Positions 30,492 through 46,880 of a DNA stretch of 54,913 nt are shown here, piece after piece. Source of the stretch: Sphingobacteriaceae bacterium (lineage in GTDB: Bacteria > Bacteroidota > Bacteroidia > B-17B0 > Aurantibacillaceae); NCBI GenBank assembly GCA_947480015.1, contig CANKBS010000024.1, forward strand, positions 1 to 54,913. The letters run 5' to 3'. The notes below the pieces were generated by a model. It searched no databases. It worked only from the letters and a program-made list of their open reading frames with translations, and had not been told where the DNA came from. Each line of letters begins with the position of its first letter. Position 1 is the first letter of the stretch. A program made the translations under genes and the position numbers.

Positions 30492-31424
30492 ATGACAGAA
30501 GAAAAAACGTATATCAAAGCCTCCAGCATTCAAGAAGCCCTGCAACTGGCCGAAACCCATAGTTCGCATTGTAAGTTCATTGCAGGTGGTACCGATATGA
30601 TGGTAAATAAATACCAGGGCAATGATACCACACAGCATTTGATTGACATCAGTGGCATTGATGAATTAAAAACAATTCGCAAGGATGACACCTATTTATA
30701 CATTGGATCTTTGGTGCGATTAAGTGATCTTAAAAAGAATTCCGACATCGCCACAGAATTTCCTGTATTGTTGGAAGCCGCTCATGCTGTGGGTTCTCCA
30801 CTTATACGCCAAACAGCTACCTTGGGTGGAAATATATTATGTGAGAATCGTTGTATTTATTTTAATCAATCTGAATGGTGGCGTGAAGCCGTTGGTTATT
30901 GTTTAAAATGCAATGGCAATGTGTGTATTGCTACCGGAGGGAAGAAAGCCTGTTTCTCCGAATTTGCTTCCGACACCGCACCGGCCCTCATCGCTTTAAA
31001 CGCCAAAGTAAAACTGATCGAACCTTCGGGTGAACGCGTGATTGCGCTGGAAGAATTGTTTTCGGGTGATGGCATTAAACCAAAAACCATTGGAACTGAT
31101 TGCCTCATTAAAGAAATTATATTGCCTCGGGGACAAGCCTTTAAAGCCGTATTTAAAAAATTACGCCTGCGTGAAACTTTAGAATTTACGTCTTTAACAA
31201 CAGCCGTTTCCTTAAATAATAAAAATGACCTTCGTATCGTTCTTGGCGGCGTAGATCCGAAACCGGTTTTGGTGAAAGCAAAACTAAATGATAACAAAGA
31301 AGACTTAATCAAAAAAGCCATAAAAGGCGGAAGAGCAGTAGATAACGACATGTTTTCACGCACCTATCGTAGAGATATGATAAGCGTATTTTTAAAAGAA
31401 GCTTTTGCACTACTTAATATATAA
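30492..31424 (+). CDS. hcrB: 4-hydroxybenzoyl-CoA reductase FAD/[4Fe-4S] subunit
   Basis: 310 residues, a CO-dehydrogenase-type FAD subunit: FAD loops AGGTD (31-35) and RQTATLGGNI (106-115). The decisive feature is an inserted cysteine loop after the second FAD motif: C121, C137, C145 and C154, spaced 16, 8 and 9. From memory this is the same spacing as the four [4Fe-4S] ligands of Thauera HcrB (122, 138, 146, 155). In that enzyme the extra cluster passes electrons towards the molybdenum site at very low potential, a trait that marks 4-hydroxybenzoyl-CoA reductase within the xanthine oxidase family. Two further cysteines, C117 and C140, lie in the loop. The gene starts one base after the fused subunit gene ends. 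Confidence 0.9.
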   Translation: MTEEKTYIKASSIQEALQLAETHSSHCKFIAGGTDMMVNKYQGNDTTQHLIDISGIDELKTIRKDDTYLYIGSLVRLSDLKKNSDIATEFPVLLEAAHAVGSPLIRQTATLGGNILCENRCIYFNQSEWWREAVGYCLKCNGNVCIATGGKKACFSEFASDTAPALIALNAKVKLIEPSGERVIALEELFSGDGIKPKTIGTDCLIKEIILPRGQAFKAVFKKLRLRETLEFTSLTTAVSLNNKNDLRIVLGGVDPKPVLVKAKLNDNKEDLIKKAIKGGRAVDNDMFSRTYRRDMISVFLKEAFALLNI

Positions 31425-32530: not shown

Positions 32531-34528
32531 CTATTTACCTTGGTATTCCACCCTTTGTCCAATCGAACTCAAGCCCAGCATGGCATCCTGAGTGGTAAAA
32601 ATACTAATGAGCTTTTCAAGTTCTGAGGCCGGACCGCGGCCTTCATCGATTAGCGTCTCGGCAAATTGCATAGCCACCGGTGCTTTAAATCGCATCACCT
32701 TAATCAATTTTTCGAGTTCCCCATTTTCGAGATGATTGTTAATGCAATTGCCCTCAAGAATAGTCGTGTAGTTATTGTTTTGATAAAGTTCTGAATATGC
32801 CAGCCATTTTCCAGTACAGCTATGTTTCGAAAAATCAGGTAATGGGCCACCGGCAAGCAAATCAAACATCTCTTCCGAACTAATAATTTTATCTACTAAA
32901 CCAATTTCTTCGGCTTCCTTGGCACTTAAATTTTTACCGCTTAGTACCAAATATTTTGCTAAACCTTTACCCACCTTTTGGGAGGTACGTTGTGTGCCGC
33001 CTAAACCGGGATAAATGCCAATGCCTGTTTCAGGAAAAGCAAGATTTACCTTGTTTAAAGCATAAATTTCATCCGCGCATAAAGCCAGTTCTAATCCACC
33101 TCCCAAGGCCAAACCATTTAATAGTGCAATGACTTTTTTTGGTGAACGATCAATCTTTTCAAAAACATCCTGCCCGTATTTCGTAAAGTTCACAATGTTA
33201 TCAAGCGTTTTATCCTTCATGTTTTTCACGAAAAACCGAATGTCAGCACCAGCCACAAATGCTTTACCCGAGCCCGTAAGAATAATGGTATCTACCGCCA
33301 ATTCTTTTTCAGCTTTTGTAAAACAAGCGTCCAACTGTTTCATAACTTCTTCATTCAAAGCATTCAAATCTTCCGGACGGTTCATTTGAATAATTGCCAG
33401 CTTACCTTTAATGTTGCAAGTAACAAACTCTAAATGCCAGTTCGATTCTGAAATACCTGAAGGCACTTTTTCGTTATACTTAGCGGCATACTGTTCCACC
33501 AAGCGTTTAACTTCCTTCTCACCGTATTTTTGCATCAATTCAACCGGACCTTTTTTCCATTTGAGACCAATTTTTGCACCTTTATTTAAATCAGTGGCTG
33601 AACATACTTTTTCTTCAAGAATTTGCGAGCAAACAAAAAACACAGATCCCAATAAACGTTCATTAATTAATTTTTCCTCTTCAGCAGAATTGGCATAAGT
33701 ACTTTCGTTAATCTCCCAATTCGTTTTAGCTTCTACCTGCTTAACTAAGGGTTGAGCTACCTTGTAGGATGGCCCATATTTCGCAAGTGTTTTTTGTGCA
33801 TGTAAGGCAATGGGAACTCCCGTAGCATTCATCAAAGCAAATGGACCCATACCAATACCAAAGGTTTTCATACAAAGTGTATCAATGGCATGCAAAGGCA
33901 TTTTCACTTCTTCCAATAATCTGCTTGCGTCATTTAGCCAAGGCACAAAAAAACGATTAATTGCAAAACCATAAGCATCTTTGGTATAAATAGGATCTTT
34001 ACCCGCTTGTATTGAAAATTGATAAACCGATTTAGTGGTATTCTCGGCTGTTTTAGCACCGGGAATAATTTCTACCAAACGGTTTTTTGCCGCATGATAA
34101 AAATAATGTAATCCAATAAATCGTTCCGGATAGCTAACAGACTGGGCCAATTCAGTTACTGAAAAGGAAGAGGTGTTGGTTGCCAGAATAGTCGTTGTCG
34201 GCACGCTGTTGCTGAGTTGTTTAAAGAGATTGGTTTTGGCTGTAAAATCCTCATAAATGGCTTCAATAATAATATCGCATTCATTTAAAGCACTCAAATC
34301 GCTGCTGCCTTTTATGTTATCAATGGCCAATGCAACTTGTGCCGCAGTAAAAACTTTTTTTTCGAGACCTTCGTTAAGCACTTTCGTTATGGTAGCTATA
34401 CCCTTGTTCACAAATTCAATGGCGGTATCGGCCAGTACCACACGATAACCTTCCTGCGCAAACTTTTGTGCCAGGGCCGAACCCATGGTGCCGGCGCCCA
34501 CTACGCCCACTGTTCTAATTGTTTTCAT
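32531..34528 (-). CDS. 3-hydroxyacyl-CoA dehydrogenase / enoyl-CoA hydratase fusion
   Basis: 665 residues. Residues 1-370 are an NAD-dependent 3-hydroxyacyl-CoA dehydrogenase: GAGTMG (11-16), and a catalytic H141/E153 pair in HYFYHAAKNRLVEIIPG with the family spacing of 12. Residues 370-665 are an enoyl-CoA hydratase with oxyanion loop FVAGAD (423-428) and both glutamates E479 and E499, spaced 20 as in crotonases. This order is the reverse of FadB/FadJ and is known for archaeal crotonyl-CoA hydratase/3-hydroxybutyryl-CoA dehydrogenases. Here it would oxidise 3-hydroxypimelyl-CoA and possibly convert crotonyl-CoA to acetoacetyl-CoA. It is the last gene of the operon, 17 bases after dch. Confidence 0.9.
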   Translation of the reverse strand: MKTIRTVGVVGAGTMGSALAQKFAQEGYRVVLADTAIEFVNKGIATITKVLNEGLEKKVFTAAQVALAIDNIKGSSDLSALNECDIIIEAIYEDFTAKTNLFKQLSNSVPTTTILATNTSSFSVTELAQSVSYPERFIGLHYFYHAAKNRLVEIIPGAKTAENTTKSVYQFSIQAGKDPIYTKDAYGFAINRFFVPWLNDASRLLEEVKMPLHAIDTLCMKTFGIGMGPFALMNATGVPIALHAQKTLAKYGPSYKVAQPLVKQVEAKTNWEINESTYANSAEEEKLINERLLGSVFFVCSQILEEKVCSATDLNKGAKIGLKWKKGPVELMQKYGEKEVKRLVEQYAAKYNEKVPSGISESNWHLEFVTCNIKGKLAIIQMNRPEDLNALNEEVMKQLDACFTKAEKELAVDTIILTGSGKAFVAGADIRFFVKNMKDKTLDNIVNFTKYGQDVFEKIDRSPKKVIALLNGLALGGGLELALCADEIYALNKVNLAFPETGIGIYPGLGGTQRTSQKVGKGLAKYLVLSGKNLSAKEAEEIGLVDKIISSEEMFDLLAGGPLPDFSKHSCTGKWLAYSELYQNNNYTTILEGNCINNHLENGELEKLIKVMRFKAPVAMQFAETLIDEGRGPASELEKLISIFTTQDAMLGLSSIGQRVEYQGK

Positions 34529-34545: not shown

Positions 34546-35319
34546 TTAACAATTTTCCCAAACCGGTTTACGTTTTTCAAGAAAGGAATTAATTCCCTCA
34601 TTGGCATCTTTGGTTTCCATCAATTGCGTCACATAAATCGTTTCGAGTTGCGGTAAATACTGTGTTAAACGGTTATTAAACTCTACCCTGCAAGCCTTCA
34701 CTGCAAAACGAAGTGATGATGCACTCTTTGGTAAAATATACTCTTCAATCCAAATATCTACTTCTTTCTCCATCACAATGCGATCTTCATATACATTGTT
34801 AAGAAGTCCCAATTGTAGTGCCTCCTGAGCAGGCACTGTTCTTCCACTCATCAAAATTTCTTCGGCGCTGGCATAGCCAATTTTTAATGGCAACAAAATA
34901 GAAGCCGGTGGTGGAAACACGCCCAAAACAATTTCAGGTTGTCCCATTTTTGCGGTAACATCGGCATATAAAAAATTACACATCAATGCCAATTCCATAC
35001 CACCGCCCAAACACTGGCCCGAAATTTTTGCAAGCGTTGGAATACTCAAGTCGCGCATGGTGAAAAACAACTTATGAAAATCGCGCAACATGGCTGCCGC
35101 GTTTTCTTTCTTATGTTCTTCCACACTGGCTCCAAACGAAAAATGTTTGCCCTCACCTTCAAAAGTAATGAGCTTCAAATTGGGTCTCTCCCTATACGAA
35201 TCAAGCAATGTCTGTAATTCAGACATCATCTGAGCATCCAAGATATTTCCTTTACCATCATCCAGTTTAATGCGCGCAATGGAATCATTAAAACTGTAAT
35301 CAACTTTTAATTTTTCCAT
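34546..35319 (-). CDS. dch: Cyclohexa-1,5-diene-1-carbonyl-CoA hydratase
   Basis: 257 residues, the length of known Dch (about 258). It is a crotonase-fold enzyme whose loops match Dch rather than ordinary hydratases: HFSFGASVEEH (59-69), GQCLGGGMELAL (101-112) and MGQPEIVLGVFPPPA (125-139). It adds water to the dienoyl-CoA made by benzoyl-CoA reductase, giving 6-hydroxycyclohex-1-ene-1-carbonyl-CoA. It sits 2 bases downstream of oah in the order had-oah-dch, so the three consecutive lower-pathway steps are cotranscribed. Recognition is by motif memory; an alignment with Thauera Dch would settle it. Confidence 0.9.
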   Translation of the reverse strand: MEKLKVDYSFNDSIARIKLDDGKGNILDAQMMSELQTLLDSYRERPNLKLITFEGEGKHFSFGASVEEHKKENAAAMLRDFHKLFFTMRDLSIPTLAKISGQCLGGGMELALMCNFLYADVTAKMGQPEIVLGVFPPPASILLPLKIGYASAEEILMSGRTVPAQEALQLGLLNNVYEDRIVMEKEVDIWIEEYILPKSASSLRFAVKACRVEFNNRLTQYLPQLETIYVTQLMETKDANEGINSFLEKRKPVWENC

Positions 35320-35321
35320 AA

Positions 35322-36425
35322 CTATACGGTTTCATGTGTTTGGTATTGAGGCGAAATAGCTCGGTGCATCTCATCATTCCATTCATTTCCCTTAGCTAAT
35401 AACTGACGGAGTTTAATAAAATTAATTTCGCGGTCATTTTTAGGTCCATCGTTAAAGGCTTTAAAGCCGGCTTTACCCTCTGTAGTCATGTTTAAAGCCA
35501 ACCACTCGCGTGAACTTTCTTTATTTTTATCCCAGTGTTCTAATTTTTTCTTCCGAACCTCAGTTAAGGTCTTAGCCAAACAATTAGGGAAGGTGTATAA
35601 TAATTTTGCAATGAGTTTATTGGTGACTTCATCTAATTTTGAAAGATCGACTTCACCTTTTGCCATGAGTTCTTTTCCTTTGGCCAATGCCTCACCACTT
35701 TTCATCGCACCAAATATAATGCGACCATACTCATCGGCGTAATTTGTAATGTTTACCAATGGATTCGGAATAAATTTACCATCTACTTTTAAAGCCGGGG
35801 CAATGTCGGTGATGAGTCCCACTTGTAAGGCCTGATGAGCTGTCCAGGGCTCACACAAGGTGAGTGAATTCATGGCACGTTCAATGCCAACATAGAGATG
35901 TAAAAAATCGGTAGAGCCGCCAATGGCTGCAGAACCGTGTTTAGGGCCGGCTTGTCCAAAACGTGCCAGGTCGGAAGCTACCGTGAAATCGCAGGCCATT
36001 CCTATTTCTTGTCCACCACCAATGCGCATGCCATTCACACGACAAACCACGGGCTTTTCACATTTTAAAATGGCGCTCACCATATCATTAAACAAACGCA
36101 TGTATTGCGAATACTCTTGTGGATTACCGGCATAGTATTCGGCATATTCTTTGGTATTTCCTCCGGTGCAAAAGGCTTTGTCCTCCGTACCGGTGAATAC
36201 AACGGCCACAACCGAGCGGTCGTTAGAGGCTTCACCAAAAGCTAAAATAATTTCTTTTACCGCCGTGGTGGTATACGAATTATATTGTTTAGGATTGTTT
36301 AAAATAATCCAGGCATTATAAAGGTCTTTAACCGGCTGTCCGCTTTGATCCAAACAAGGACGTTTTTCAAATAAAATATCTGTGTAAGTGTGTGCTACCA
36401 GATTGTGACTTTTTAACTGTGTCAT
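35322..36425 (-). CDS. oah: 6-oxocyclohex-1-ene-1-carbonyl-CoA hydrolase
   Basis: 367 residues. This is the very conserved ring-opening enzyme used as a marker of anaerobic benzoyl-CoA degradation (Oah/BamA/BadI-type crotonase; BamA is the Geobacter name). Marker stretches are present: LYNAWIILNNPKQYNSYTTT (35-54), FCTGGNTKEYAEYYAGNP (85-102), NGMRIGGGQEIGMACD (131-146) and FGQAGPKHGSAAIGG (156-170). It adds water twice and cleaves the ring to 3-hydroxypimelyl-CoA. It is longer than standard crotonases (about 260), as expected for this family. R. palustris BadI belongs to a different branch of the pathway, so this gene indicates the Thauera/Geobacter-type lower pathway. Confidence 0.95.
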   Translation of the reverse strand: MTQLKSHNLVAHTYTDILFEKRPCLDQSGQPVKDLYNAWIILNNPKQYNSYTTTAVKEIILAFGEASNDRSVVAVVFTGTEDKAFCTGGNTKEYAEYYAGNPQEYSQYMRLFNDMVSAILKCEKPVVCRVNGMRIGGGQEIGMACDFTVASDLARFGQAGPKHGSAAIGGSTDFLHLYVGIERAMNSLTLCEPWTAHQALQVGLITDIAPALKVDGKFIPNPLVNITNYADEYGRIIFGAMKSGEALAKGKELMAKGEVDLSKLDEVTNKLIAKLLYTFPNCLAKTLTEVRKKKLEHWDKNKESSREWLALNMTTEGKAGFKAFNDGPKNDREINFIKLRQLLAKGNEWNDEMHRAISPQYQTHETV

Positions 36426-36453: not shown

Positions 36454-37515
36454 TTAGTATTTAAAGTCCGGCACCAACACCGAACGTTTATCGTATTTGT
36501 GTTCTAAGGTGTTTTTAAATACCTCGTTAATTTGTGATAGTGGAAAAGTTTGAACAAAATCTTTGATGGCCAATTTACCGCTGGCTATTAAATCAACCAC
36601 TTCGGGATACAGCTCAGGCTTGCAACCCCAGGTGCCAATGAGTTTGGCGTCGAAGGCCATTAAATTACTCAAGCGCACTTCAAGCTTATTCATCGTAAAC
36701 CCAACGATGCTTAAAGTAGAGGTAAAGGTGATAAGATTAAATGCCAGATCTTGGCCGGGTGTGGTTCCCGAAAATTCAAACAGTTTCCATCCGTATTTAG
36801 AGGTTCCTAATTCTTTGGCCAGTTCTTTGACTTTGTTTTTAATTTCTTTGCTATCCAGTCCTTTTGAATTAATGGTGGCGTGCACGCCATGTTGTTTGGC
36901 CTTTGCCAACTTTTCATCACTTATGTCGATCGCAATTACTTTAGCGCCCATAATTTTGGCAATGAGTGCACCGTAAACCCCTACTCCACCCACACCAATA
37001 ATAATGGCCAAATCACCGGCTTCTAATTCCGATTTTTTCATCACCTGATATGGCGTTGAAATAGCATCAGCAATGACCGATAATTCCTCAAGGGAATAGG
37101 TTTGTAATAATGAATCGGGTACAGGACATAAATAACGATGTGGCACCAAAATGTGTGAAGCAAATCCGCCGTGAAAATCATTGCCCGGCATGAGTTGATT
37201 CTGACACATGTTACTTCTGCCTTTTTTACATAACTCACATTCTCCGCAAGGCAATACAGCGGGGATGATCACATGTTTTCCTTTTAAGTGTAATGGTCCT
37301 TGAATAACTGTGCCACTTATTTCATGGCCAAGGGTAAGCGGCAATTCTTTTTTAGTCTTTACACCACTGTGCCAAAAACTCAGGTCGGTGTGACAAACCC
37401 CGCAACCCGCAATTTTCACCAGGGCTTCATGTTCTTTGGCGGTTGGCAATTCCGATTCAACCAATTTAAAATCGGCATTCAACTCTGTCATTTGCCATTG
37501 TTTCAAGGTATCCAT
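36454..37515 (-). CDS. had: 6-hydroxycyclohex-1-ene-1-carbonyl-CoA dehydrogenase
   Basis: 353 residues, zinc alcohol-dehydrogenase family. Catalytic zinc ligands are in CGVCHTD (C38, C41) and GHE (63-65). A structural zinc site is formed by C90, C93, C96 and C104. The Rossmann motif GVGGVGVYGA (about 175-184) is followed by an acidic residue after the second strand (AIDISDEK), which favours NAD. Together with dch and oah on either side of the reaction sequence, this identifies it as Had, oxidising the 6-hydroxy to the 6-oxo compound. It lies 9 bases after the thiolase gene and 28 bases before oah. Confidence 0.9.
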   Translation of the reverse strand: MDTLKQWQMTELNADFKLVESELPTAKEHEALVKIAGCGVCHTDLSFWHSGVKTKKELPLTLGHEISGTVIQGPLHLKGKHVIIPAVLPCGECELCKKGRSNMCQNQLMPGNDFHGGFASHILVPHRYLCPVPDSLLQTYSLEELSVIADAISTPYQVMKKSELEAGDLAIIIGVGGVGVYGALIAKIMGAKVIAIDISDEKLAKAKQHGVHATINSKGLDSKEIKNKVKELAKELGTSKYGWKLFEFSGTTPGQDLAFNLITFTSTLSIVGFTMNKLEVRLSNLMAFDAKLIGTWGCKPELYPEVVDLIASGKLAIKDFVQTFPLSQINEVFKNTLEHKYDKRSVLVPDFKY

Positions 37516-37524: not shown

Positions 37525-38787
37525 TTATAAAGAAATATTTTCAAATAAAATGGCAGTTCCCTGTCCACCGCCAATACAGGCCGAAGCAATGCCATACTTC
37601 ACTTTTCGGCGTTTCATTTCGTGAATCATGGTTAAGGATAATCGTAATCCACTGGCCGCTAAGGGGTGGCCAATCGCAATGGCGCCGCCATTCACATTTA
37701 ATTTGTTGCGATCGAGTCCTAATTCAATTTCACAACCAATCACTTGTGCCGAGAAGGCTTCATTGATTTCAAACAAACCAATATCCTCAATTTTTAATCC
37801 GCTTAATTCGAGTAATAATTTAATGGCAGGTACCGGACCCAATCCCATTAATTTTGGATCAATGCCACAGGTAGCTGCGCCAACTATTTTAGCTATGGGC
37901 TTAAGTTTTTTAATGTAGATGCTAGCTTTATCGGCTACCACGGCAGCTCCCGAGCCATCCACAATACCACTGCAATTTCCTGCGGTTAATACGCCTACCT
38001 CAGAAAACACGGGTCCTAGTTTTGCCAGCGATTCAACAGTGGTTTCACGAATGTGTTCATCGCTCACAAAATCTTTTACACCACCGGGTAATTTAACCTT
38101 ACGTGCTTTTAAACCTTCCGCTTCAAATAGGGTAGAATTAATTGACGTGATCTCCTCTTTAAACAAATCATTTTTACGGGCATTTAAGGCGCGGTTAAAA
38201 GAAAGTAAAGCGTATTCGTCACATTGTTGACGTGTTAGGTTATGTTTCTTGGCTACATTTTCAGCGGTAAATCCCATGGGATAACCCGCAGCGGTGTCGT
38301 CGAGTGCTTCCCAGAGCATGTCTTTAAAAACGGGACGGCCCAATAAATAGCCCATCCGATTTCCGAAACTAACGGTTGGCGAGAGTGACATGTTTTCGGT
38401 ACCGCAGCAAAGCACGGTGGCCGCTTTACCCAAAGTAATTTGCTCGGCGGCTGTAATAATGGTTTCAAAACCCGATGCGCAAATGCGTTGCACCATAAGT
38501 GATGGCACCGATTGCGGCAAACCCGCGTACAGAGCAATGTGTCGTGGTAAAAAATAAGCATCACCCGATGATTGTCCGATGTTAGCCAGGATAGCCTGAT
38601 CTATTTGGTCGGGCGTAACGCCTGATTTGGCCAAGGCTGCGCGTGAAGCAAAAATTCCAAGATCGGTTGGCGATACATTGGCGAGTGTTCCGCAGTATTT
38701 ACCAAAGGGCGTTCGTGCCCCATTTACCAAATAAATATCTTCAAATAAAATACCAATGCCTTTTTCTTTATTGTGATATGCTTTCAT
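37525..38787 (-). CDS. Acetyl-CoA acyltransferase (thiolase)
   Basis: 420 residues. The thiolase triad is present: nucleophile C103 in RICASGFETI, H374 in IAIGHPLAASG and C404 in SACIGGGQG. The enzyme would cleave 3-oxopimelyl-CoA to glutaryl-CoA and acetyl-CoA and perhaps acetoacetyl-CoA to two acetyl-CoA. Chain-length preference cannot be read from the sequence. The start is one base after the stop of the reductase/ATPase fusion gene. Residues 1-17 (MKAYHNKEKGIGILFED) extend beyond the usual thiolase start, so an internal initiation is possible but no other ATG fits well. Confidence 0.92.
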   Translation of the reverse strand: MKAYHNKEKGIGILFEDIYLVNGARTPFGKYCGTLANVSPTDLGIFASRAALAKSGVTPDQIDQAILANIGQSSGDAYFLPRHIALYAGLPQSVPSLMVQRICASGFETIITAAEQITLGKAATVLCCGTENMSLSPTVSFGNRMGYLLGRPVFKDMLWEALDDTAAGYPMGFTAENVAKKHNLTRQQCDEYALLSFNRALNARKNDLFKEEITSINSTLFEAEGLKARKVKLPGGVKDFVSDEHIRETTVESLAKLGPVFSEVGVLTAGNCSGIVDGSGAAVVADKASIYIKKLKPIAKIVGAATCGIDPKLMGLGPVPAIKLLLELSGLKIEDIGLFEINEAFSAQVIGCEIELGLDRNKLNVNGGAIAIGHPLAASGLRLSLTMIHEMKRRKVKYGIASACIGGGQGTAILFENISL

Positions 38788-38788: not shown

Positions 38789-40639
38789 TTAGTCGGAATT
38801 AATTAGTTCTTTTTTTATGGTTCCGTTTTTGTTTAAAGCCTCCCATTGGTTTTTTGCTGTAGTAGCGGCGCCAAGCGACACAATAAACTGCGGGTGATCG
38901 ATGGTTTTGATTTCGATGTTAAACTTTTTACCTAAAATGGTACTTAAATAGGGATGATGTTCGATAACACCGCCAATCATGAAGGTTGGAATGTTCGGGA
39001 ACAAGCGCATTTTGGTGATTTTGTTTGAGATGGAAATATAAATGCCTCTTGCTATATCGGGCTTCGACATCCCATCAAACACCCAACTCATAATTTCAGT
39101 TTTTGCAAACACCGTACAAAAACTATTGAGTTCCTTTTCATATTCCGAATGCGCTGCCAAACTACTCATATCCGAAATATTAATTTCTGCCCGTTCTGAA
39201 ATTTCCTCCAAAAAAGCTCCGGTACCCGCCGCACATTTATCATTCATATAAAAATTCGCCACTTGATTATCATCCTTGGTATGAATAATTTTAATATCCT
39301 CTCCCCCTACATCAATGATGTTTTTTTCGCCTTTATAAAACTCGCCAACACCCGCCGCCGCACAATTGATCTCGGTTTTAATCATATCAGTTTCGGTGAA
39401 ATGTTTTCTGCCGTAACCCGTAGCACACGAGTATTTGATGTTAAACACCGCATGTATCGCCTGCATCACATTTTTCATGGCATTACGATCCTTGTTCATG
39501 GTATGCAGTAAATATCTAAATACCGGAACGCCCTTCTCATCAATGATGGTAAACTTGGTGAAGGCCGATCCCAAATCCATTCCCAAAAAATAATTATTTT
39601 CCTTGTAGGAAATAAACGAACGGTGTTTATCGATCAAGCCTTTGCTTACAATGCGTTTGGTAATTTCCCCATCAGGACCCGGTACGCGGTTAAGAATGCT
39701 TTTGTTTGTCATGGCTTTTACCATGTTAGTGAAAGCAAGATTGAGCGATGTTTTGACGTAATGTTTTTTTCCGTACTCCACAATCTTCCCATTAAAATAA
39801 TCAATCTCTGTTTGACGGTGGTTCATAAGGTCAATGGCCAGAGAAGGAAAGTGATCGCCCCCTTTTTTTAGGTATTGCATACACTTGCGAATAAAATCAT
39901 CCGGAAAACGGATTTTCTCTTTTCGTGCTACCTCCACCCCTTCGTTCATAATTTGCTCAATGAGTTCGATGGTATCTTCATCGGCCATGGCTTCTGCCAT
40001 CGTTAGTCGCCCTACACCACAAAGCGCACTGAGCGAGGCGTTAAGAATTGTTTTTTGCCAGGTGCTTTTTAATAATTCAAACGAACTCAGTTCTTCTGTT
40101 GCAAAATCAACACTATTTAAAATATCGGCAAACCTCTTGGCCTCTTTGCTTTTGCTATCATCAATAGAGCCTATGTAGTTTGGCGGTGTGAAAAAAGACA
40201 CCTTCGCCGTGTTAGGCGACGACATGTTGCCGGCATAATTAATAACCAAACGCAAGGTTCGCGATTCTCCAAATACACCTGCTATAATGCCTTCGGTATC
40301 GATGCCATTTTGTGCCGATACAAAAAGTAATTTTTGAGAATTGATCCGTTCGGCTTCTTTTAAAGCGCCGGGTGTTTGATAGGTTTTGAGTGAGAACACC
40401 AGATAATCCAAATCCATGTCACGCATATCGGCCACTGAATCAACAATCTGTTCAAATTTAGTGGTACTCTCAAACATGTTCTCAAGTACAATACCTTCTT
40501 CTCTAATCTTTTTTAATTTAAATTCATCCTTATCACAAATTGCCACTTGACAACCCGCTTGTTTTAGTTTAACTGCCAGGATCATACCTACCGGTCCCAT
40601 CCCAACCACACCCACATTGCATTTTACAGAATTCTTCAT
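38789..40639 (-). CDS. Fusion of ketopantoate-reductase-like domain with BcrA/HgdC-type ASKHA ATPase
   Basis: 616 residues with two domains I have not seen joined before. Residues 1-about 315 are a 2-dehydropantoate-2-reductase-like (ApbA/PanE) domain: VGVVGMGPVGMILAV, and the likely catalytic K196 (STWQKTILN) and E278 (TEIDYFNG). Residues about 348-600 are a BadF/BadG/BcrA/BcrD-type activator ATPase: GMDLGSAFTKF (353-363), IIDVGGEDIK (441-450), and the two cysteines that bridge a [4Fe-4S] cluster between two protomers, C469 (DKCAAGTGAF) and C508 (SFCTVFAKTE). It probably drives ATP-coupled electron transfer to the HgdB-like protein encoded at 41161-42372, with the reductase domain acting on a linked hydroxyacid or oxoacid step. 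It is not a pantothenate gene by context. Confidence 0.85.
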   Translation of the reverse strand: MKNSVKCNVGVVGMGPVGMILAVKLKQAGCQVAICDKDEFKLKKIREEGIVLENMFESTTKFEQIVDSVADMRDMDLDYLVFSLKTYQTPGALKEAERINSQKLLFVSAQNGIDTEGIIAGVFGESRTLRLVINYAGNMSSPNTAKVSFFTPPNYIGSIDDSKSKEAKRFADILNSVDFATEELSSFELLKSTWQKTILNASLSALCGVGRLTMAEAMADEDTIELIEQIMNEGVEVARKEKIRFPDDFIRKCMQYLKKGGDHFPSLAIDLMNHRQTEIDYFNGKIVEYGKKHYVKTSLNLAFTNMVKAMTNKSILNRVPGPDGEITKRIVSKGLIDKHRSFISYKENNYFLGMDLGSAFTKFTIIDEKGVPVFRYLLHTMNKDRNAMKNVMQAIHAVFNIKYSCATGYGRKHFTETDMIKTEINCAAAGVGEFYKGEKNIIDVGGEDIKIIHTKDDNQVANFYMNDKCAAGTGAFLEEISERAEINISDMSSLAAHSEYEKELNSFCTVFAKTEIMSWVFDGMSKPDIARGIYISISNKITKMRLFPNIPTFMIGGVIEHHPYLSTILGKKFNIEIKTIDHPQFIVSLGAATTAKNQWEALNKNGTIKKELINSD

Positions 40640-40668: not shown

Positions 40669-41136
40669 TTAACTGTTCTTGATGTAATAAACTTCGTCTT
40701 CCTCCGCTATCTCTTTTCCCTTTACTTTTAATAATTGTTCTCGGTACGATTCTATAATTTCATCGTGACTCAAACCTGCACCATTAATGGGAATGGCATC
40801 CTGATTAATAATAAAAGTTTCAGATATTTTATCCTCTGCCCCCGATAGCTTTTGATTCACTTGTTTCATGCAACCGGTTAAACATTTGCCTAACTCATCT
40901 AAACTACGTGGACAAAAACAACCGTCGTTGGCAGTGAGCGTATAATCGGGATGTGTATAAAAGGATTTTTTTGGAAACAAGAAAGCAATGGATTCATTGT
41001 TCTCATTTTGTTTCACTACAGCATAGCGCACATAGTGACACGTAGCTTCAATGAGTTTGCCCACCAATTCCGGCTCTACTTCTTCGCCGTTAGAGAGTCT
41101 GAATAGTTTTTTCTCGAATGAGGGATTTGTTTTCAT
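40669..41136 (-). CDS. Small cysteine-containing protein of unknown function in the bcr operon
   Basis: 155 residues, cytoplasmic, no family recognised. Five cysteines: C33 (EATCHYVRYAV), then C73, C75, C85 and C89 in a CxC-x9-CxxxC arrangement (DGCFCPRSLDELGKCLTGCMK). The latter set could bind an Fe-S cluster or zinc. The rest is acidic and helical with a charged C-terminus (EIAEEDEVYYIKNS). It sits between the HgdB-family gene (24-base gap) and the reductase/ATPase fusion gene (29-base gap), so it is probably an accessory factor, small subunit or electron carrier of that pair. It does not have the double CxxCxxCxxxCP pattern of bacterial 2[4Fe-4S] ferredoxins. Confidence 0.7.
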   Translation of the reverse strand: MKTNPSFEKKLFRLSNGEEVEPELVGKLIEATCHYVRYAVVKQNENNESIAFLFPKKSFYTHPDYTLTANDGCFCPRSLDELGKCLTGCMKQVNQKLSGAEDKISETFIINQDAIPINGAGLSHDEIIESYREQLLKVKGKEIAEEDEVYYIKNS

Positions 41137-41160: not shown

Positions 41161-42372
41161 TTACACTTTGGCGCTTTCCAGCTGTTCAATAAAAGTTTCT
41201 ATACGGGTAATACTTTGTCCTTCCGAATAAAACCGTAAATCACATAAATCACCTTCTATGACCATATGCGGAATGCCCAGCGATTCGCTGATGCGCTGAG
41301 GCATACCAAAACGTGAATTGGAATTGTTCGCACAGGTTTTAGCATCGTGAAAAATAATGCCATCAATACGGAATAACTTAATCAGATCGCCTAATAAACG
41401 TTGTTTGGCTTCTTCACTGCGGTTAATAAATATTTCGGTATACGCTTTGGCCGACGATTCGAATGGGTGACGTTGATCAAAAGCATCAAACACCCAACTG
41501 TTACAATAGGTAGAAGCAACAACCGCCGCATTGTTTTGTGCAAACAAATCAGATAAGGAACGCAGCTTGCCCCAGATAGGCATGCCATCCCAGTAAATAC
41601 GACATTGTTCGTGTTCTAAAAAACCCAGGCCTTTACTTACATTCTCTTCCAGCTCTTTTAATAATACCTTGTAATAATCTTTAGCCATTTCGGTGCCACG
41701 TAACACAACAATGGGTCCCATGTGAATGGTTGCGTCAAAAAAGCTAATCGGTGCAGGTGTGTTAGTAGCGGTGTGTAATACTTTTTTCCATAAATCGGTT
41801 GCCTCTGCACTTAGTTGAAGGGTGTGTCTAAAATGATCGATGTCAAACTTTTTACCACTCACTTTTTCACAAATCGGAATGAGGTTTTTAAATTGTTGTG
41901 CCACATCCTGAATCTCCTCTTCCGTCACTTCATCCACGTGACGCGGTGGATTAATGCCATAGATAGGAACCTGTAATTCGCGCGAAAAATAAGTGAACCA
42001 ATCTTGCACTTCACGGCATTGGTTAGTGTTGTATACAATAAGATCCGGTTTCGGCGGTCCTTCCAAACCATAGTGCTCTTTTAATGGCGTTTCTTTTTTT
42101 AAGTAGGAACCAATATCTGCCGTTAAATACGAACAAATGTCGTTGTTATAACCGGCTTTACCCGATTCGGGAATGAGATCGCCGGCCGTGCGGGTAGCGC
42201 CAAGCAAGGCCCCATGATTTTCAGGGAAATGAACTTCAAAACCAAAGGAGCGTAATAATTCGGCAGGGCCCACACTGGTGCACCAGGCTATTTTTTTTGA
42301 ATGGTCTTTCATGCCCAGAAAATAATTTCCCATTATTTCCTTCATGTATTTTGTAGATTGAATTTTATACAT
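41161..42372 (-). CDS. Third HgdB/BcrB-family Fe-S protein (paralogue of the reductase subunits)
   Basis: 403 residues of the 2-hydroxyglutaryl-CoA dehydratase component D/benzoyl-CoA reductase subunit family: IAWCTSVGPAELLRSFGF (28-45), NNDICSYLTADIG (76-88), VYNTNQCREVQDW (113-125) and a C-terminal HDAKTCANNSNSRFGMP and IEGDLCDLR. Cysteines C31, C80, C119, C347 and C377 are candidate cluster ligands. It is clearly diverged from the BcrB and BcrC encoded upstream. It may act as a homodimer, as in double-cubane-cluster proteins (YjiM/DCCP type), or with the 155-residue protein, and may be energised by the fused ATPase. The ATG at 42372 lies 5 bases after the previous stop; ATGs at codons 10, 14 and 21 are alternatives. 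Confidence 0.85.
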   Translation of the reverse strand: MYKIQSTKYMKEIMGNYFLGMKDHSKKIAWCTSVGPAELLRSFGFEVHFPENHGALLGATRTAGDLIPESGKAGYNNDICSYLTADIGSYLKKETPLKEHYGLEGPPKPDLIVYNTNQCREVQDWFTYFSRELQVPIYGINPPRHVDEVTEEEIQDVAQQFKNLIPICEKVSGKKFDIDHFRHTLQLSAEATDLWKKVLHTATNTPAPISFFDATIHMGPIVVLRGTEMAKDYYKVLLKELEENVSKGLGFLEHEQCRIYWDGMPIWGKLRSLSDLFAQNNAAVVASTYCNSWVFDAFDQRHPFESSAKAYTEIFINRSEEAKQRLLGDLIKLFRIDGIIFHDAKTCANNSNSRFGMPQRISESLGIPHMVIEGDLCDLRFYSEGQSITRIETFIEQLESAKV

Positions 42373-42377: not shown

Positions 42378-44519
42378 TTAAATTTTTATACGTGCGTCAA
42401 CAACAATTGTTTTATTTTCAAAAGCCATCAATGGATTTAAATCCATCTCTTTTATTTGTGGGAAATCACAAACTAATTGTGAAATCCGTTGTATAATTTC
42501 TATTACCGACGCTTTGTGAATGCCTTTTTGTCCGCGTACGCCATCCAATAATTTTGCCGACTTAATAGAGGCCAACATTTCTGTGGCTTCTAATTCAGTT
42601 ACCGGAGCAAGCTTAAACACCACGTCCTTGAGCACTTCTACGTAAATGCCCCCCATACCAAACATAATTAAATGGCCTAAATCAGGTTTTCCACTTACAC
42701 CAATAATAAGTTCTTTACCACCCGGCATAAATTTTTGAATAAAGAATTTTAATTCGCCTTTAACGAACTTTTCCTTCATGGCTTCCACCGCAATCTTAAC
42801 TTCAGCCGCCGTTTTAATATTAATGGCCACTCCACCCAAATCACTTTTATGAACTAAGTCTGAAGCCTCGGCTTTGATCACCACCGGAAATCCAATCTCT
42901 TCAGCGGCTTTAACGGCATCGTTCGTGTTGGCGGCTAAACGCCAATCGGCCACCGGTATACCGTAAGCCGTTAGCAAATCATATACAAAAGGTGATGGTA
43001 AAAAACGCCCTTCGTCAGAAGATGACGAATAGGCTGCTATAATTTTTTCAGCCTTTACCTTATCAATCACCGAGAATTTTTTTGCCTCTCCAATGTTGCG
43101 TGTTTGAATTTTATGGAATTTATACAAAGCGCCCATTGCCTTGGCTGCCGTGGTTGGGAAACTGTAACAAGGAACACCGCCATCTTTTAATAGTTGTGCG
43201 GTGACTCTAAAACGCTCCATGCTCAAATTGGTCATAAAATTGCAAATAATGGGCTTGCGTTGTCGTTTGCTCACTTCTACAATTTGTCGTGCTACCTCAT
43301 CGGTATCGGTAAAAGGAGCGGTCACAAAATTCACAAAAATACTGTCAATCGTTTCTTCGTCCATTAACACATCCAAAGCGATTCTGAAATGTGCGCCACT
43401 ACCTGTTGCTACCACATCAATGGGATTACCCACGCTCGCTTCCGGTAACAAGCCTGCTCGTAAAAGTTGTAATGCTTTATCTGAAAGAGCCGGAATTTGT
43501 AATCCCGAACTCACTAATTCATCGGCCGCAATCACCGCCGGACCGCCTGTGTTGGTAATAATCCCCACACGATTTCCTTTAGGAATGGGTTGTGTAGAAA
43601 AGGCCATGGCTGCCTGACAGAGATCTTCTTCATTGCTAAAAGAAAGGATACCTGTTTTTTCGAAAATAAGTTCAGTCGAAATATCCACCCCGGCTAATGA
43701 TCCGGTGTGAGAAGCTGCCGCCTTAGCACCCGCCTCCGTACGTCCCGATTTCATGGCCAGTATCGGTTTTTTCTTAGCTACTAAATTTGCAGCCTCAATA
43801 AAATCTTTAGGCTCTCTGAATCCTTCTGTATATAATATGATGGCTTTTGTCCCTTCATCTTCCCCATAATATTTTACCACTTCCGAAATGGATACGTCGC
43901 AAGCATTGCCATTAGAGGCATAGAGCCGCATGCCAATATCCAAATCAAATAAGCTCTGCATGATAAAAGCACCAACGCCTCCGCTTAAAGCCACAATAGA
44001 AACGGCACCGGGCTTTGGAAAGGTGAATGTAAAATCACAGTAAGCATTAAATTCAGGATCAGCATTAATAATACCCTGGCAATTTGGCCCGAATATGCGT
44101 ACGCCATATTCTTTGGCCTTGGCTAAAAATGCTTCCTGCAAAGCCATGCCCTCTTCACCCATTTCACTAAAGCCCGCCGAATTAATAATTACCGACTTAA
44201 TTCCTTTTTTACCACAGTCCTCAATAATTTGTGGCACAAATTTACTTGGGATGATCACATGAGCCAGATCAATATCATCGGGCACGTCGAAAATAGTGGG
44301 ATACGCTTTAATGCCTCTTATTTCGGGCTCTTTGGGATTAATGGGATAAATTTTACCGGTAAAATTATAATGCACCAGATTTTTGATGATCACATTTCCA
44401 ATGGAGAGATCTTTGGAAGAGGCTCCAATAATGGCAATTGATCGAGGTTTAAAAAGACTGTCTAATTCGTGTCCTTTGTTTGTTTTTTTTAACGCGGGAC
44501 TTAAGCTTTCTGTGTTCAT
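42378..44519 (-). CDS. ADP-forming acyl-CoA synthetase (acetate-CoA ligase family)
   Basis: 713 residues with the single-chain ADP-forming acyl-CoA synthetase layout. A CoA-binding Rossmann domain comes first (about 20-150, SIAIIGASSKDLSIGN). It is followed by a succinyl-CoA-ligase-like flavodoxin fold (about 160-480) with the phosphohistidine motif ASHTGSLAGVD (H271), and an ATP-grasp domain (about 490-710, PVVIKAEASDLVHKSDLGGV, then EMDLNPLMA). The reversible reaction is acyl-CoA + ADP + Pi to acid + CoA + ATP. In this operon it could make ATP from acetyl-CoA or another pathway thioester, or activate benzoate at the cost of one phosphate bond. The direction is not shown by sequence. It starts 48 bases after bcrD. 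Confidence 0.88.
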   Translation of the reverse strand: MNTESLSPALKKTNKGHELDSLFKPRSIAIIGASSKDLSIGNVIIKNLVHYNFTGKIYPINPKEPEIRGIKAYPTIFDVPDDIDLAHVIIPSKFVPQIIEDCGKKGIKSVIINSAGFSEMGEEGMALQEAFLAKAKEYGVRIFGPNCQGIINADPEFNAYCDFTFTFPKPGAVSIVALSGGVGAFIMQSLFDLDIGMRLYASNGNACDVSISEVVKYYGEDEGTKAIILYTEGFREPKDFIEAANLVAKKKPILAMKSGRTEAGAKAAASHTGSLAGVDISTELIFEKTGILSFSNEEDLCQAAMAFSTQPIPKGNRVGIITNTGGPAVIAADELVSSGLQIPALSDKALQLLRAGLLPEASVGNPIDVVATGSGAHFRIALDVLMDEETIDSIFVNFVTAPFTDTDEVARQIVEVSKRQRKPIICNFMTNLSMERFRVTAQLLKDGGVPCYSFPTTAAKAMGALYKFHKIQTRNIGEAKKFSVIDKVKAEKIIAAYSSSSDEGRFLPSPFVYDLLTAYGIPVADWRLAANTNDAVKAAEEIGFPVVIKAEASDLVHKSDLGGVAINIKTAAEVKIAVEAMKEKFVKGELKFFIQKFMPGGKELIIGVSGKPDLGHLIMFGMGGIYVEVLKDVVFKLAPVTELEATEMLASIKSAKLLDGVRGQKGIHKASVIEIIQRISQLVCDFPQIKEMDLNPLMAFENKTIVVDARIKI

Positions 44520-44567: not shown

Positions 44568-45428
44568 TTAATTTGCTGCCAGAACTGCTCCCTTTTCTTT
44601 TAATTTATAATAGCGGTAACCGCCCCAAAGTGCGGCACCAATGGCTCCCGAATAAATGGCATCGGGATGCGTGATAAATTCGAGCTCCCCTTTTTTATTT
44701 TCGGTGGCCAGTTCTTCAATGGCTTGAATCATGCCTGAATTCATACCCATACCACCCACCAGTGCTACCGGTGATTCGGTGCGCAGTGAACCCAGTAATT
44801 TAATAACGCGCTGCGAAATAGAAATGTTAATGCCTTTCACAATGTTGGGCGTTGATAGTCCTTTGGATACCAAATTAATCACATCGGTTTCAGCCAACAC
44901 CGCACAAATACCCGAAGGTACTTCAGGATTATCGGCCTTTAACGACATGGGTCCAACTTCCTCAATGGCCAAACCTAAATACCGTGAAATATTTTCAATA
45001 AACTGACCCGAACCGGAAGCGCATTGCCCTGTCATTTTATAATCCATCACCTTTCCGCGGTTGTCTACCTTAATGGCCCTCACATATAGGCCACCCATAT
45101 CCACAACAGTTTTTGCTTTAGGTGCAAAAAAGATGCCACCACGGGCATGCGAGGTCATGCTATAAAAGTGTCCGGTTTTTCTTTCCACCATTTCACCTTC
45201 GCCGGTAGAGGCTAAATAGGCAATGTTTTTAGTGTAGTCGAGTTTGTTTCGCTCCAATATCGAATCCACTGCTTCTACAACCACATCTTTGGGATTACGT
45301 TTTCTAATTTTTTCAGTTTGTTTGTCTACCAACTGATGTTCATTGCCATTATGGTCGTACGACATTAAAACCACTTTCACATAACTTCCGCCTACATCCA
45401 CGCCCATTGTATAAATTTTGTTTTCCAT
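44568..45428 (-). CDS. bcrD: Benzoyl-CoA reductase ATPase subunit D
   Basis: 286 residues, ASKHA-fold ATPase of the BadF/BadG/BcrA/BcrD family. The nucleotide loop MGVDVGGSYVKVV (8-20), VDMGGLYVRAIKV (109-121), and the two cluster cysteines C136 (GQCASGSGQF) and C175 (GICAVLAETDV) are in place. In class I benzoyl-CoA reductase, the A and D subunits form the ATP-hydrolysing half and share one [4Fe-4S] cluster that drives electrons to the B and C subunits. It is the fourth gene in the order C-B-A-D, the same as the Thauera bcr and Rhodopseudomonas bad clusters. It is about the length of known BcrD. Confidence 0.92.
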   Translation of the reverse strand: MENKIYTMGVDVGGSYVKVVLMSYDHNGNEHQLVDKQTEKIRKRNPKDVVVEAVDSILERNKLDYTKNIAYLASTGEGEMVERKTGHFYSMTSHARGGIFFAPKAKTVVDMGGLYVRAIKVDNRGKVMDYKMTGQCASGSGQFIENISRYLGLAIEEVGPMSLKADNPEVPSGICAVLAETDVINLVSKGLSTPNIVKGINISISQRVIKLLGSLRTESPVALVGGMGMNSGMIQAIEELATENKKGELEFITHPDAIYSGAIGAALWGGYRYYKLKEKGAVLAAN

Positions 45429-45458: not shown

Positions 45459-46880
45459 TTATTGTTCTTCTACGGCATTTGTTTTTTTAGCAGTCGGCAA
45501 ATCGGCACTGATGTTTCTTCGTGCAAACATGGCGCCACCTAAAGCTCCCATAAAAATTGAATCCGTATGAATGTTCATGGTTACCTCGCCGTAAGAATCG
45601 CCTACCATTTGTTTTACATATTTTAATACAGCCTGATTACGTGCCACACCACCGGTAAACGTAAATTCATTTTTTACGCCACCCGATCGGGCGATCAACG
45701 ACATGGCTCTTTGTACAATAGCTTTGTGTAATCCCGCTAAAATATTCGGACGCTCTTCGCCATTGTGTAACAATTCTTTTACCTCCGCTCCGGCAAACAC
45801 CGTGCAGGTTGAACAAATGGTGGTTTCTTTGGTCGAACTCATCGCTTCAGGACCCAATTCATTTAACGATAAACCAAATTCATCGGCAATGTAACCCAAG
45901 TACCTTCCGCAGCCAGCCGCACAGCGGTCGTTCATATGGAAGCTGGTTACTAAACCGTGACTATCTACCTGAATGGCTTTGGTATCTTGACCCCCAATAT
46001 CCAACACGGTGCGCGTATTTGGGAAAATGGCATGCGCGCCAAAGGCATGACATAATATTTCAGATTTAATACAATCTTCCGGAAAAGGCAGTAATGCTCT
46101 ACCGTAACCCGTACCCACCATTTTAGCAATGTGAATGTCTTCGCTGGCAATGGCTTCAATATGTTGGCGCAAAGTAATTTCAACATTTTTGTAATTATTT
46201 TTTACGGCATTCAGTTCGGCGTAATACCAATCTTCTTTGCTTCCATCTTCTTGCTGTTCGGCTAAACCTTGGTATTTTTCTTCCAACAAGGTCATTGATT
46301 CTAAAACCAATTCCTTAAAATTATACCGCACCATTTCGTTCTCAACCGGCGTAATACTTTTATCAAAGGCCAGCATCATGGGCTCGTAAAACTCACGTCC
46401 AATCAAGGCTATCTCGGCATTGTATTTTTCACTCACAATGTCGCGGAAGAACTGATTTTTAGATCCCAGATTACCGTGAATAAATTCGTTTCGAATTTGA
46501 GGCCGAATGTTTTCAATAATCGACGATATGCGTTCTAGAATCTCCGCCTTGTTATTATACGAAAATTCCGAAACGGTTTTTTTCAGTGTAATTTCTAAAC
46601 TCTCCATGCGGCGTTTAAATTGTTGGTACTGAAAAACGGTTCGGATGTCTTCCATGTACTTTTTAAATTCCGGCTTGGATTCCATATCCTGCTTAATGCG
46701 GTTAGAAAGTAGTGTGAAACGCGCATCATAAATCGCTTCTTCGCGGGCTATATCCGCCGCTACTTTGTAATTGGCTCTGGTATTCGTAATACCTCTTCCA
46801 ACAATTTCATCTTTATCGTTAATGATAACTGCCTTTGAAGTAGTGGAACCCAGATCGACACCTAAATAATATTTTTTCAT
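45459..46880 (-). CDS. bcrA: Benzoyl-CoA reductase ATPase subunit A
   Basis: 473 residues, the long member of the ATPase pair. It opens with YYLGVDLGSTTSKAVII (4-20), then has an insertion of about 190 mostly helical residues (about 55-245) that BcrD lacks. It continues with VLDIGGQDTKAIQ (292-304), C320 and C324 in DRCAAGCGRYLGY, and C356 and C359 in CSTCTVFAGAEV. Cysteines C320 and C359 correspond to the bridging cluster ligands. It pairs with BcrD to couple two ATP per electron pair in known enzymes. The long insert favours the Bcr rather than the shorter Bzd ATPase form, but the subtype needs a tree. It lies 30 bases from both bcrB and bcrD. Confidence 0.92.
   Translation of the reverse strand: MKKYYLGVDLGSTTSKAVIINDKDEIVGRGITNTRANYKVAADIAREEAIYDARFTLLSNRIKQDMESKPEFKKYMEDIRTVFQYQQFKRRMESLEITLKKTVSEFSYNNKAEILERISSIIENIRPQIRNEFIHGNLGSKNQFFRDIVSEKYNAEIALIGREFYEPMMLAFDKSITPVENEMVRYNFKELVLESMTLLEEKYQGLAEQQEDGSKEDWYYAELNAVKNNYKNVEITLRQHIEAIASEDIHIAKMVGTGYGRALLPFPEDCIKSEILCHAFGAHAIFPNTRTVLDIGGQDTKAIQVDSHGLVTSFHMNDRCAAGCGRYLGYIADEFGLSLNELGPEAMSSTKETTICSTCTVFAGAEVKELLHNGEERPNILAGLHKAIVQRAMSLIARSGGVKNEFTFTGGVARNQAVLKYVKQMVGDSYGEVTMNIHTDSIFMGALGGAMFARRNISADLPTAKKTNAVEEQ

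Follow-up and report, generated by a model that had tools for sequence, protein, structure and literature searches.

Why should a dehydrogenase of the ketopantoate reductase (KPR) type be carried in one polypeptide with an activator ATPase of the 2-hydroxyacyl-CoA dehydratases, in the midst of genes for anaerobic benzoyl-CoA degradation? The question is raised by a 616-residue protein encoded on contig CANKBS010000024.1 (assembly GCA_947480015.1) of a Sphingobacteriaceae bacterium from the Bacteroidota, the whole 54,913-nucleotide stretch of which is hereafter called the window. The answer towards which we lean, and which we regard as somewhat probable, is that the fusion belongs to a 2-hydroxyacyl-CoA dehydratase module with aryl substrates, in which a neighbouring 403-residue protein, HgdB403, would be the dehydratase subunit.

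The fused protein and its two domains

An earlier note on this DNA had described the protein as a fusion of a PanE-like oxidoreductase with an activator ATPase, and the fusion proves to be real. Among 79 related loci, obtained from a scan of one genome per species with the best 80 matches kept, a single open reading frame (ORF) spans more than 90% of the fusion query in 75 (these include L076 and the fused L093, L094 and L096, which fall outside the KPR size limits); L083 is fused too, with its ORF cut by a contig end, L099 retains only a C-terminal piece at a contig end, and L095 and L097 (2/79) hold two neighbouring genes separated by a stop. The fusion is also a single protein in G145, a genome consisting of one contig, and the assembly or frame artefact against which the earlier note had warned is ruled out by the 75 loci with one full ORF. 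Both halves score above cut-off in Pfam (ApbA at residues 9-152, 4.4e-18; ApbA_C at 190-310, 5.4e-29; BcrAD_BadFG at 352-594, 2.4e-34) and in NCBIfam, where TIGR00745 (2-dehydropantoate reductase subfamily) reaches 160.5 bits against a cut-off of 141.35, and TIGR00241 (acyl-CoA dehydratase activase, residues 351-592) 160.3 bits against 125.4. An AlphaFold2 model of the monomer has a mean predicted local distance difference test score (pLDDT) of 85 and a predicted template modelling score (pTM) of 0.54, which leaves the mutual arrangement of the two domains undefined, and this arrangement was not used.

The catalytic lysine and glutamate that the note had recognised in the PanE-like half are K196 and E278, which are invariant, together with N111 and S266, in all 34 aligned fusions; we take N98, K176, S244 and E256 of E. 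coli PanE to be the counterparts of N111, K196, S266 and E278. In an alignment of 22 KPR rows (the window's, that of L092 and 20 unfused KPR proteins), the catalytic Asn, Lys and Glu are found in 22/22 and the Ser in 20/22, being replaced by Thr in L175 and L176. The closest solved structures by sequence and by Foldseek are D-mandelate dehydrogenases (3wfi/5x20, 6e-20), with which a putative KPR, 2ew2, is level (8.4e-20); VIA-align gives Z scores of about 25-39 against KPR-family structures and places the archaeal KPR 5ayv (Z 38.6) and 5x20 (Z 37.1) about equal. Residue 36 varies across the 34 fusions (D in 16, V in 9, E in 8, I in 1), so no claim is made on the choice of cofactor, and the gene context argues against a PanE proper that makes pantoate.

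The two cluster cysteines of the activator, C469 and C508, likewise stand where the note had put them; they are invariant in 34/34 fusions, and the domain aligns here with 4eht and 1hux. By sequence, the closest solved activators are HadI (4eht, 2e-36) and HgdC (1hux, 2.7e-35), closely followed by MbdQ (1.6e-33), and the domain would be expected to form a homodimer bridged by one [4Fe-4S] cluster and to possess ATPase activity. According to PMC11971306, dehydratase activators deliver one ATP-activated electron, which is then recycled, whereas benzoyl-CoA reductase (BCR) spends ATP per electron. The fusions carry a GGED motif (E447 in 34/34) where the aligned PDB activators read GGQD and MbdP reads GGQT; as a hallmark of the whole family GGED was dropped, for it is present in 11/17 unfused activators, while 6/17, and L178 likewise, have GGQD.

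A proposed module of dehydrogenase, activator, dehydratase and ligase

HgdB403 is supported as the partner of the fusion, as the earlier note had proposed. It is present in 75/79 loci and missing from three contigs shorter than 6 kb and from L065, in which the gene sits some 10.6 kb further upstream. Its closest solved relative is HadB (3o3m_A, profile E 1.2e-60), followed by MbdO (1.4e-44) and BzdO (5.1e-31), and its match to the double-cubane cluster protein (DCCP) is weak (profile E 2.1e-08). The three cluster cysteines C80, C119 and C347, together with E51 and Y82, are kept in 21/21 HgdB403 sequences plus 14/14 further loci. By alignment to HadB and BzdO, E51 and Y82 correspond to the glutamate beside the catalytic cluster and the tyrosine binding the thioester oxygen in BzdO, as these are described in PMC11971306.

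Unlike HadBC and HgdAB, the window's genome and most genomes inspected have no dedicated second HGD-D subunit. The genome of the window (99.99% complete) contains three HGD-D proteins, namely BcrB, BcrC and HgdB403, all of them in the cluster; among 13 further genomes, 12 have exactly three matches and G246 has four, one of them short; another 13 genomes comprise two with one match (G558 and G717), five with three and six with four to seven. HgdB403 may be a homodimer, may be paired with the cysteine-rich domain discussed below, or may borrow BcrC where BCR exists; the last arrangement is disfavoured because G558 and G717, genomes of unstated completeness, hold a single HGD-D match.

Between HgdB403 and the fusion lies a 155-residue protein that its sequence identifies as the detached C-terminal domain of an AMP-forming CoA ligase. 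This domain is seen in 71 loci: within an AMP-forming ligase of about 580 residues beside HgdB403 in 40 (e.g., L045:7041-8798), alone in 29 (e.g., L021:9499-9966) and cut by a contig end in 2. Its five cysteines are kept in 42/42 ligase-fused and 31/31 stand-alone domains (C75 in 30/31), and the A10 lysine is present in 42/42 ligase-fused versus 4/31 stand-alone domains; L094 (a contig-cut fused ligase) was left out of the stand-alone set, and ligase pieces shorter than 120 residues and loci L001-L020 were dropped as well. Since the cysteines are kept and the A10 lysine is mostly lost, the domain would have a role other than adenylation; it presumably works with HgdB403 and the fusion, and may bind iron-sulfur or another metal. 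The ligase origin is taken from the sequence match, because the model of the protein (pLDDT 69) and the Foldseek search, in which the best rows were acyl-CoA synthetases and adenylation domains with E values of at least 1.7e-3 (none at or below 0.001), were weak.

The same gene set recurs in more distant genomes. At E 1e-50, matches were obtained in 24 of 297 genomes sampled around G485 (Acidobacteria) and in 29 of 199 sampled around G484 (Fidelibacterota), many rows covering one half only, and 15 stretches were chosen from 15 of these 53 genomes. KPR, HgdB403, activator and CoA ligase lie within a few kb of one another in 13/15 stretches, the incomplete ones being L178 (activator present, no ligase) and L185 (a 4.6-kb contig with KPR only). 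In L182, the ligase is found about 4 kb away, beyond two opposite-strand ORFs, and is preceded by a family III CoA-transferase, which we take to be of the family of FldA and HadA; L180 also carries a 3-hydroxyacyl-CoA dehydrogenase/enoyl-CoA hydratase, a thiolase-like gene and a CBS-ACT protein. No bcr genes were seen within the stretches L178, L179, L180, L182, L183 and L184; four of these six genomes have further HGD-D matches elsewhere, and in the other two, G558 and G717, HgdB403 is the only HGD-D match found. In these two Acidobacteriota genomes, the operon comprising KPR, HgdB403, activator and ligase stands by itself. Such a gene set would form a chain from 2-oxoacid through 2-hydroxyacid and 2-hydroxyacyl-CoA to 2-enoyl-CoA, and from there into beta-oxidation.

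KPR and activator are separate genes in some Fidelibacterota and Acidobacteriota genomes and in two genomes of the Bacteroidota phylum (G380 and G246). In G380 (L115:8191-11898), a pair of genes of the xanthine dehydrogenase family lies between them; in L183, the gene order is HgdB403-activator-ligase-KPR, and from the activator onwards each gene overlaps the next by a few bases; and in G246, the KPR gene (two copies), the activator and HgdB403 are located on contigs other than that of L133, with KPR and activator not co-located. For the earlier note, finding the halves as separate genes in close relatives with no shared context would have counted against its reading; the split genes do share a neighbourhood, G246 excepted. 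G246 was dropped as a BCR-free case, because it contains a Bzd-like four-gene BCR set (L133:8090-12220), whose members share 23-37% identity with the genes of the window and in front of which stand genes for a short-chain dehydrogenase and a thiolase. The genome G890 holds fused and split copies of the module on contigs C31 and C54 together with two HGD-D gene sets, possibly reflecting two strains in the bin.

Rooted on BcrA/BcrD-type activators, the activator tree divides the fusions between two clades, one of which is nested with the split L095 and L097. A single clade of all fusions is rejected by the approximately unbiased (AU) test for the activator (p 0.0064) and for the KPR domain (p 4.98e-06), whose tree was built without an outgroup. 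Because a single clade is rejected and the linkers differ (36-39 residues in 30 fusions versus 6 in 4 Fidelibacterota fusions), two independent origins are favoured as the simplest reading of the sequences; alternatively, one fusion may have been followed by several splittings. Two favoured origins would provide unusually direct evidence for a 2-hydroxyacid dehydrogenase and a dehydratase activator acting together.

For the proposed sequence of reactions, we infer the activities, the (R)-stereochemistry, the homodimer, the docking, the substrate and the direction from sequence and context. The KPR domain, as an NAD(P)H-dependent (R)-2-hydroxyacid dehydrogenase, would reduce a 2-oxo acid, probably an arylpyruvate arising from the transamination of phenylalanine or tyrosine, and the neighbouring ligase (ADP-forming in the window, AMP-forming in many relatives) would form the 2-hydroxyacyl-CoA. 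The activator would form a homodimer in which C469 and C508 of the two chains together bind one [4Fe-4S] cluster, and would use ATP to send a single electron to the [4Fe-4S] cluster of HgdB403. As a ketyl-radical dehydratase lacking a second HGD-D subunit, HgdB403 would remove water to yield cinnamoyl- or 4-coumaroyl-CoA as the 2-enoyl-CoA. Enzymes of beta-oxidation encoded in the gene cluster would then shorten the aryl-acryloyl-CoA to benzoyl-CoA or 4-hydroxybenzoyl-CoA, the latter being dehydroxylated by the reductase at 27701-31424, and BcrABCD, Dch, Had and Oah would degrade the benzoyl-CoA. Being tethered, dehydrogenase and activator are probably kept at a constant ratio, and the dehydrogenase is probably held in place at the dehydratase.

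Substrate and competing explanations

The genes of the window concerned here are collected in Table 1. Those from bcrC to the 3-hydroxyacyl-CoA dehydrogenase/hydratase run on one strand in the order bcrC-bcrB-bcrA-bcrD, ADP-forming ligase, HgdB403, 155-residue protein, fusion, thiolase, had, oah, dch and dehydrogenase/hydratase.

Table 1. Positions in the window of the fusion gene, its domains and the neighbouring genes
Feature	Position	Strand	Remarks
4-Hydroxybenzoyl-CoA reductase-like protein, gamma + alpha fused	27701..30490	+	929 aa
4-Hydroxybenzoyl-CoA reductase beta subunit	30492..31424	+	with cysteine insert
3-Hydroxyacyl-CoA dehydrogenase/enoyl-CoA hydratase fusion	32531..34528	-	
dch-like dienoyl-CoA hydratase	34546..35319	-	TIGR03189 245.4 bits, under cut-off 292.5; best family
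oah, ring-opening 6-oxocyclohex-1-ene-1-carbonyl-CoA enzyme	35322..36425	-	TIGR03200 581.3 bits, cut-off 464.45
had, 6-hydroxycyclohex-1-ene-1-carbonyl-CoA dehydrogenase	36454..37515	-	TIGR03201 446.6 bits, cut-off 338.65
BktB-like thiolase	37525..38787	-	
KPR-activator fusion gene	38789..40639	-	616 aa, single open frame
HgdC/HadI-type activator ATPase domain	38837..39592	-	residues 350-601; C469, C508; GGED, not GGQD
Linker between KPR and activator domains	39593..39697	-	
KPR/PanE-fold dehydrogenase domain	39698..40639	-	residues 1-314; N111, K196, S266, E278 invariant (34/34)
Cysteine-rich protein	40669..41136	-	155 aa; C33, C73, C75, C85, C89 kept; A10 Lys absent
HgdB403, HadB-like dehydratase subunit	41161..42372	-	403 aa; C80, C119, C347, E51, Y82; invariant C31, C290
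ADP-forming acyl-CoA ligase	42378..44519	-	713 aa; occupies the place of the AMP-forming ligase in other relatives
bcrD, BCR activator subunit	44568..45428	-	308.2 bits, cut-off 312.85; best family
bcrA, BCR activator subunit	45459..46880	-	415.9 bits, cut-off 578; best family
bcrB	46911..48203	-	638.2 bits, cut-off 486.55
bcrC	48229..49419	-	429.4 bits, cut-off 421.15

An aromatic substrate is suggested, first of all, by the benzoyl-CoA pathway genes that surround the fusion: in the 43 loci of at least 21 kb, 41 carry bcrA, 37 had and 37 oah (at least 40% identity), and the long loci without bcr (L065 and L097) have it elsewhere in the same genomes. The window further contains a 4-hydroxybenzoyl-CoA reductase gene pair; the beta subunit matches 1rm6_B (E 8.5e-42), and its C121, C137, C145 and C154 align with cysteines of the 1rm6_B insert, by which the genes at 27701-31424 are assigned to this enzyme, though they score below the curated cut-offs (TIGR03195 218.5/404.55, TIGR03194 800.7/994.55, TIGR03193 166.4/257.8). 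The gamma and alpha subunits, fused in the window, are separate genes in L092 and L093. The same direction is indicated by the D-mandelate dehydrogenases among the closest solved relatives of the KPR domain, by HisC-type aminotransferases that occur in or near some clusters (in L044 between fusion and thiolase, in L093 upstream of bcrC, in L055 as a fragment, and in G246 overlapping a KPR gene), and by the AMP-binding ligases of the window's genome, which shows only two matches of this kind (other ADP-forming ligases were not sought).

Several observations weigh against a dehydratase module for aryl substrates. As regards the dehydratase, the HadB equivalog NF052455 gives HgdB403 221.2 bits, far under the cut-off of 750; to our knowledge, the characterised dehydratases of the HadBC/HgdAB kind all have two HGD-D subunits, and the six of 13 genomes with four to seven matches may hold a second one. 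HgdB403 has two invariant cysteines, C31 and C290, besides its three cluster ligands; C290, not C31, aligns with a DCCP cysteine, which might hint at a double-cubane cluster held through C31 and C290. The module lies mostly beside BCR, so its role may be tied to that enzyme, and the activators that adjoin bcr read GGED, where stand-alone and PDB ones read GGQD (MbdP GGQT). The distribution is patchy, with a strong match in 5/87 genomes of the window's family, one of the five being partial, and, at E 1e-60 across a sample of the phylum, in 4/395 genomes (two fused, including the window's own, and two split), and the KPR proteins of L178 and L182-L185 share only 27-31% identity with that of the window. 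The aromatic substrate, which depends on context, is the weakest step. Aminotransferases are rare (3/79 loci plus G246), and both of those scanned exceed the hisC equivalog cut-off (306.3 and 297.0 versus 276.55), so they may be plain histidinol-phosphate transaminases serving histidine synthesis. The molybdenum-enzyme pair of L115 was withdrawn as 4-hydroxybenzoyl-CoA reductase genes within the module, since its flavin adenine dinucleotide (FAD) subunit lacks the cysteine insert. Beside the modules of L180 and L182-L184, in which eight unassigned ORFs were scanned, no aromatic-specific gene was recognised, nor was any among two scanned ORFs of L178.

A more demanding form of the aryl proposal appears doubtful as a whole: a radical dehydratase that manages with one HGD-D subunit and has its partners joined in a physical unit made up of the dehydrogenase fused to the activator and of a CoA ligase, whose five-cysteine C-terminal domain, carrying iron-sulfur or metal, would dock on the dehydratase as a substitute for the lost second subunit, and through which aryl-amino acids would enter the benzoyl-CoA pathway via aryl-lactate and aryl-acrylate.

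The most serious competitor, possible if still unlikely, is that the same dehydratase module serves non-aromatic 2-hydroxyacids, such as 2-hydroxyglutarate, lactate or branched-chain acids, with the adjacency of bcr reflecting co-regulated anaerobic CoA-ester metabolism. The six stretches carrying the module with no bcr, the two genomes in which HgdB403 is the only HGD-D match and the branched-chain substrate of HadB, the closest solved relative, all speak for it; the prevalence of bcrA, had and oah in the long loci, the D-mandelate dehydrogenase likeness of the KPR domain and the 4-hydroxybenzoyl-CoA reductase of the window speak against it. Less probable is that HgdB403 and the activator constitute a third, BCR-like reductase of a ring or dienoyl-CoA, to which the KPR domain would be accessory. 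BCR and the dehydratases form one enzyme family, according to PMC11971306, HgdB403 matches MbdO and BzdO too, and with C31 and C290 a larger cluster might be accommodated; against this, HadB and HadI are the closest relatives, HgdB403 is accompanied by a dehydrogenase and a CoA ligase, and two genomes, of unstated completeness, have HgdB403 and no other HGD-D match.

The earlier note had itself offered two roles for the fusion, namely, the direct coupling of an oxoacid redox step to ATP-driven electron transfer, and the use of the NAD(P)H-binding fold as an electron inlet or sensor for the ATPase. Neither found support, and we consider them very improbable: the physical fusion, with two origins favoured, would suit them, but the KPR catalytic set is kept in 34/34 fusions, the KPR of the split forms is a gene of its own, sometimes at a distance (L115, L183), and neither a flavin domain nor an extra cluster domain by which a hydride might be converted into single electrons scores above cut-off in the fusion in Pfam or NCBIfam, the sole FAD-type Pfam matches being sub-threshold and directed to the Rossmann N-terminus. 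Hardly more credible is a route in which the KPR domain, as a mandelate/phenylglyoxylate dehydrogenase, would supply benzoyl-CoA by way of an oxoacid:ferredoxin oxidoreductase while the activator served BCR. The D-mandelate dehydrogenase relationship and POR-type genes in 10 or 11 of the 79 loci may be cited for it, but it leaves HgdB403 and the ligase unexplained and supplies an activator that BCR already has in BcrA and BcrD.

Other genes were noticed in or near the clusters. A saccharopine-dehydrogenase-like gene stands in the bcr operon between bcrA and bcrD (L069:3909-5069 and L116:13468-14589, both scanned) and, judged by clustering, is also found in L052, L063, L064, L067 and L088, which were not scanned. 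In L070 (13068-15158), a 696-residue protein with only a weak enoyl-CoA hydratase domain replaces the usual beta-oxidation gene and adjoins a divergent thiolase; similar ORFs occur in L078 and L081 (not scanned). A TrpB-like pyridoxal phosphate enzyme lies near the cluster in L042, L093 and L098 (TIGR01415 in L098), and hydantoinase/oxoprolinase A and B genes lie downstream of it in L026 (scanned) and in L040, L041, L042, L057 and L098 (by clustering). In the window, 5679-17897 is a 4072-residue ORF that contains repeats of the bacterial immunoglobulin and cadherin-like kinds, bears a signal for type IX secretion and adjoins a PorP/SprF gene.

Relation to known systems

In the open-licence PMC literature, nothing was found that joins KPR with a 2-hydroxyacyl-CoA dehydratase or with anaerobic benzoyl-CoA metabolism, or that joins a 2-hydroxyacyl-CoA dehydratase with a hydroxyacid dehydrogenase in a gene cluster or with BCR in Bacteroidetes; bcr in Bacteroidota may already be in print. 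In the same literature, an aryl-lactate/aryl-acrylate entry to benzoyl-CoA was found only as a hypothesis, a phenyllactyl-CoA to benzoyl-CoA route being discussed for a benzene degrader in PMC13416013. The module of the window is a testable candidate for the way in which Bacteroidota that live anaerobically or denitrify, and their relatives, could channel keto acids into the benzoyl-CoA pathway, aromatic amino acids being a possible source of these acids. Two further pointers are a dehydratase that would have one HGD-D subunit, and a cysteine-rich ligase domain that would have been retained alone after the adenylating half was swapped for a different kind of ligase.

The nearest precedents are the clostridial 2-hydroxyacyl-CoA dehydratase systems (HadBC/HadI and HgdAB/HgdC), which share the HadB-like subunit with its cluster cysteines, glutamate and tyrosine and the HadI/HgdC-like activator, and which likewise have a 2-hydroxyacid dehydrogenase and a CoA-activating enzyme alongside. 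The window's module differs from them in that it has a single HGD-D subunit where they have two, a CoA ligase takes the place of their CoA-transferase, the activator reads GGED rather than GGQD, and there is a linkage to benzoyl-CoA reductase. Amino-acid-fermenting clostridia also have FldBC/FldI and the CoA-transferases HadA and FldA. With the class I BCR cluster (BcrABCD, Had, Oah, Dch), the window shares the genes that flank the fusion, namely those assigned to the four Bcr subunits (BcrA and BcrD score under their equivalog cut-offs), had and oah, and one that is dch-like (also under its cut-off), as well as the radical enzyme family; the fusion and HgdB403 are additional to BcrABCD and score under the Bcr equivalog cut-offs. 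In the DCCP system (DCCP/DCCP-R; 7yyl, 6eno), one HGD-D protein acts with one homologous activator, and the activator is 33% identical to that of the window, but HgdB403 matches DCCP only weakly and is accompanied by a dehydrogenase and a CoA ligase. The KPR-family D-mandelate/D-2-hydroxyacid dehydrogenases (3wfi, 5x20) have the same fold and catalytic residues at about 25% identity and are stand-alone enzymes, whereas the KPR domain of the window bears a C-terminal activator ATPase. The parts are of known kinds; the module is set apart by the joining of two of them in one protein, by a dehydratase with one HGD-D subunit only, by a dehydrogenase of the KPR type and by a cysteine-rich domain separated from its ligase.

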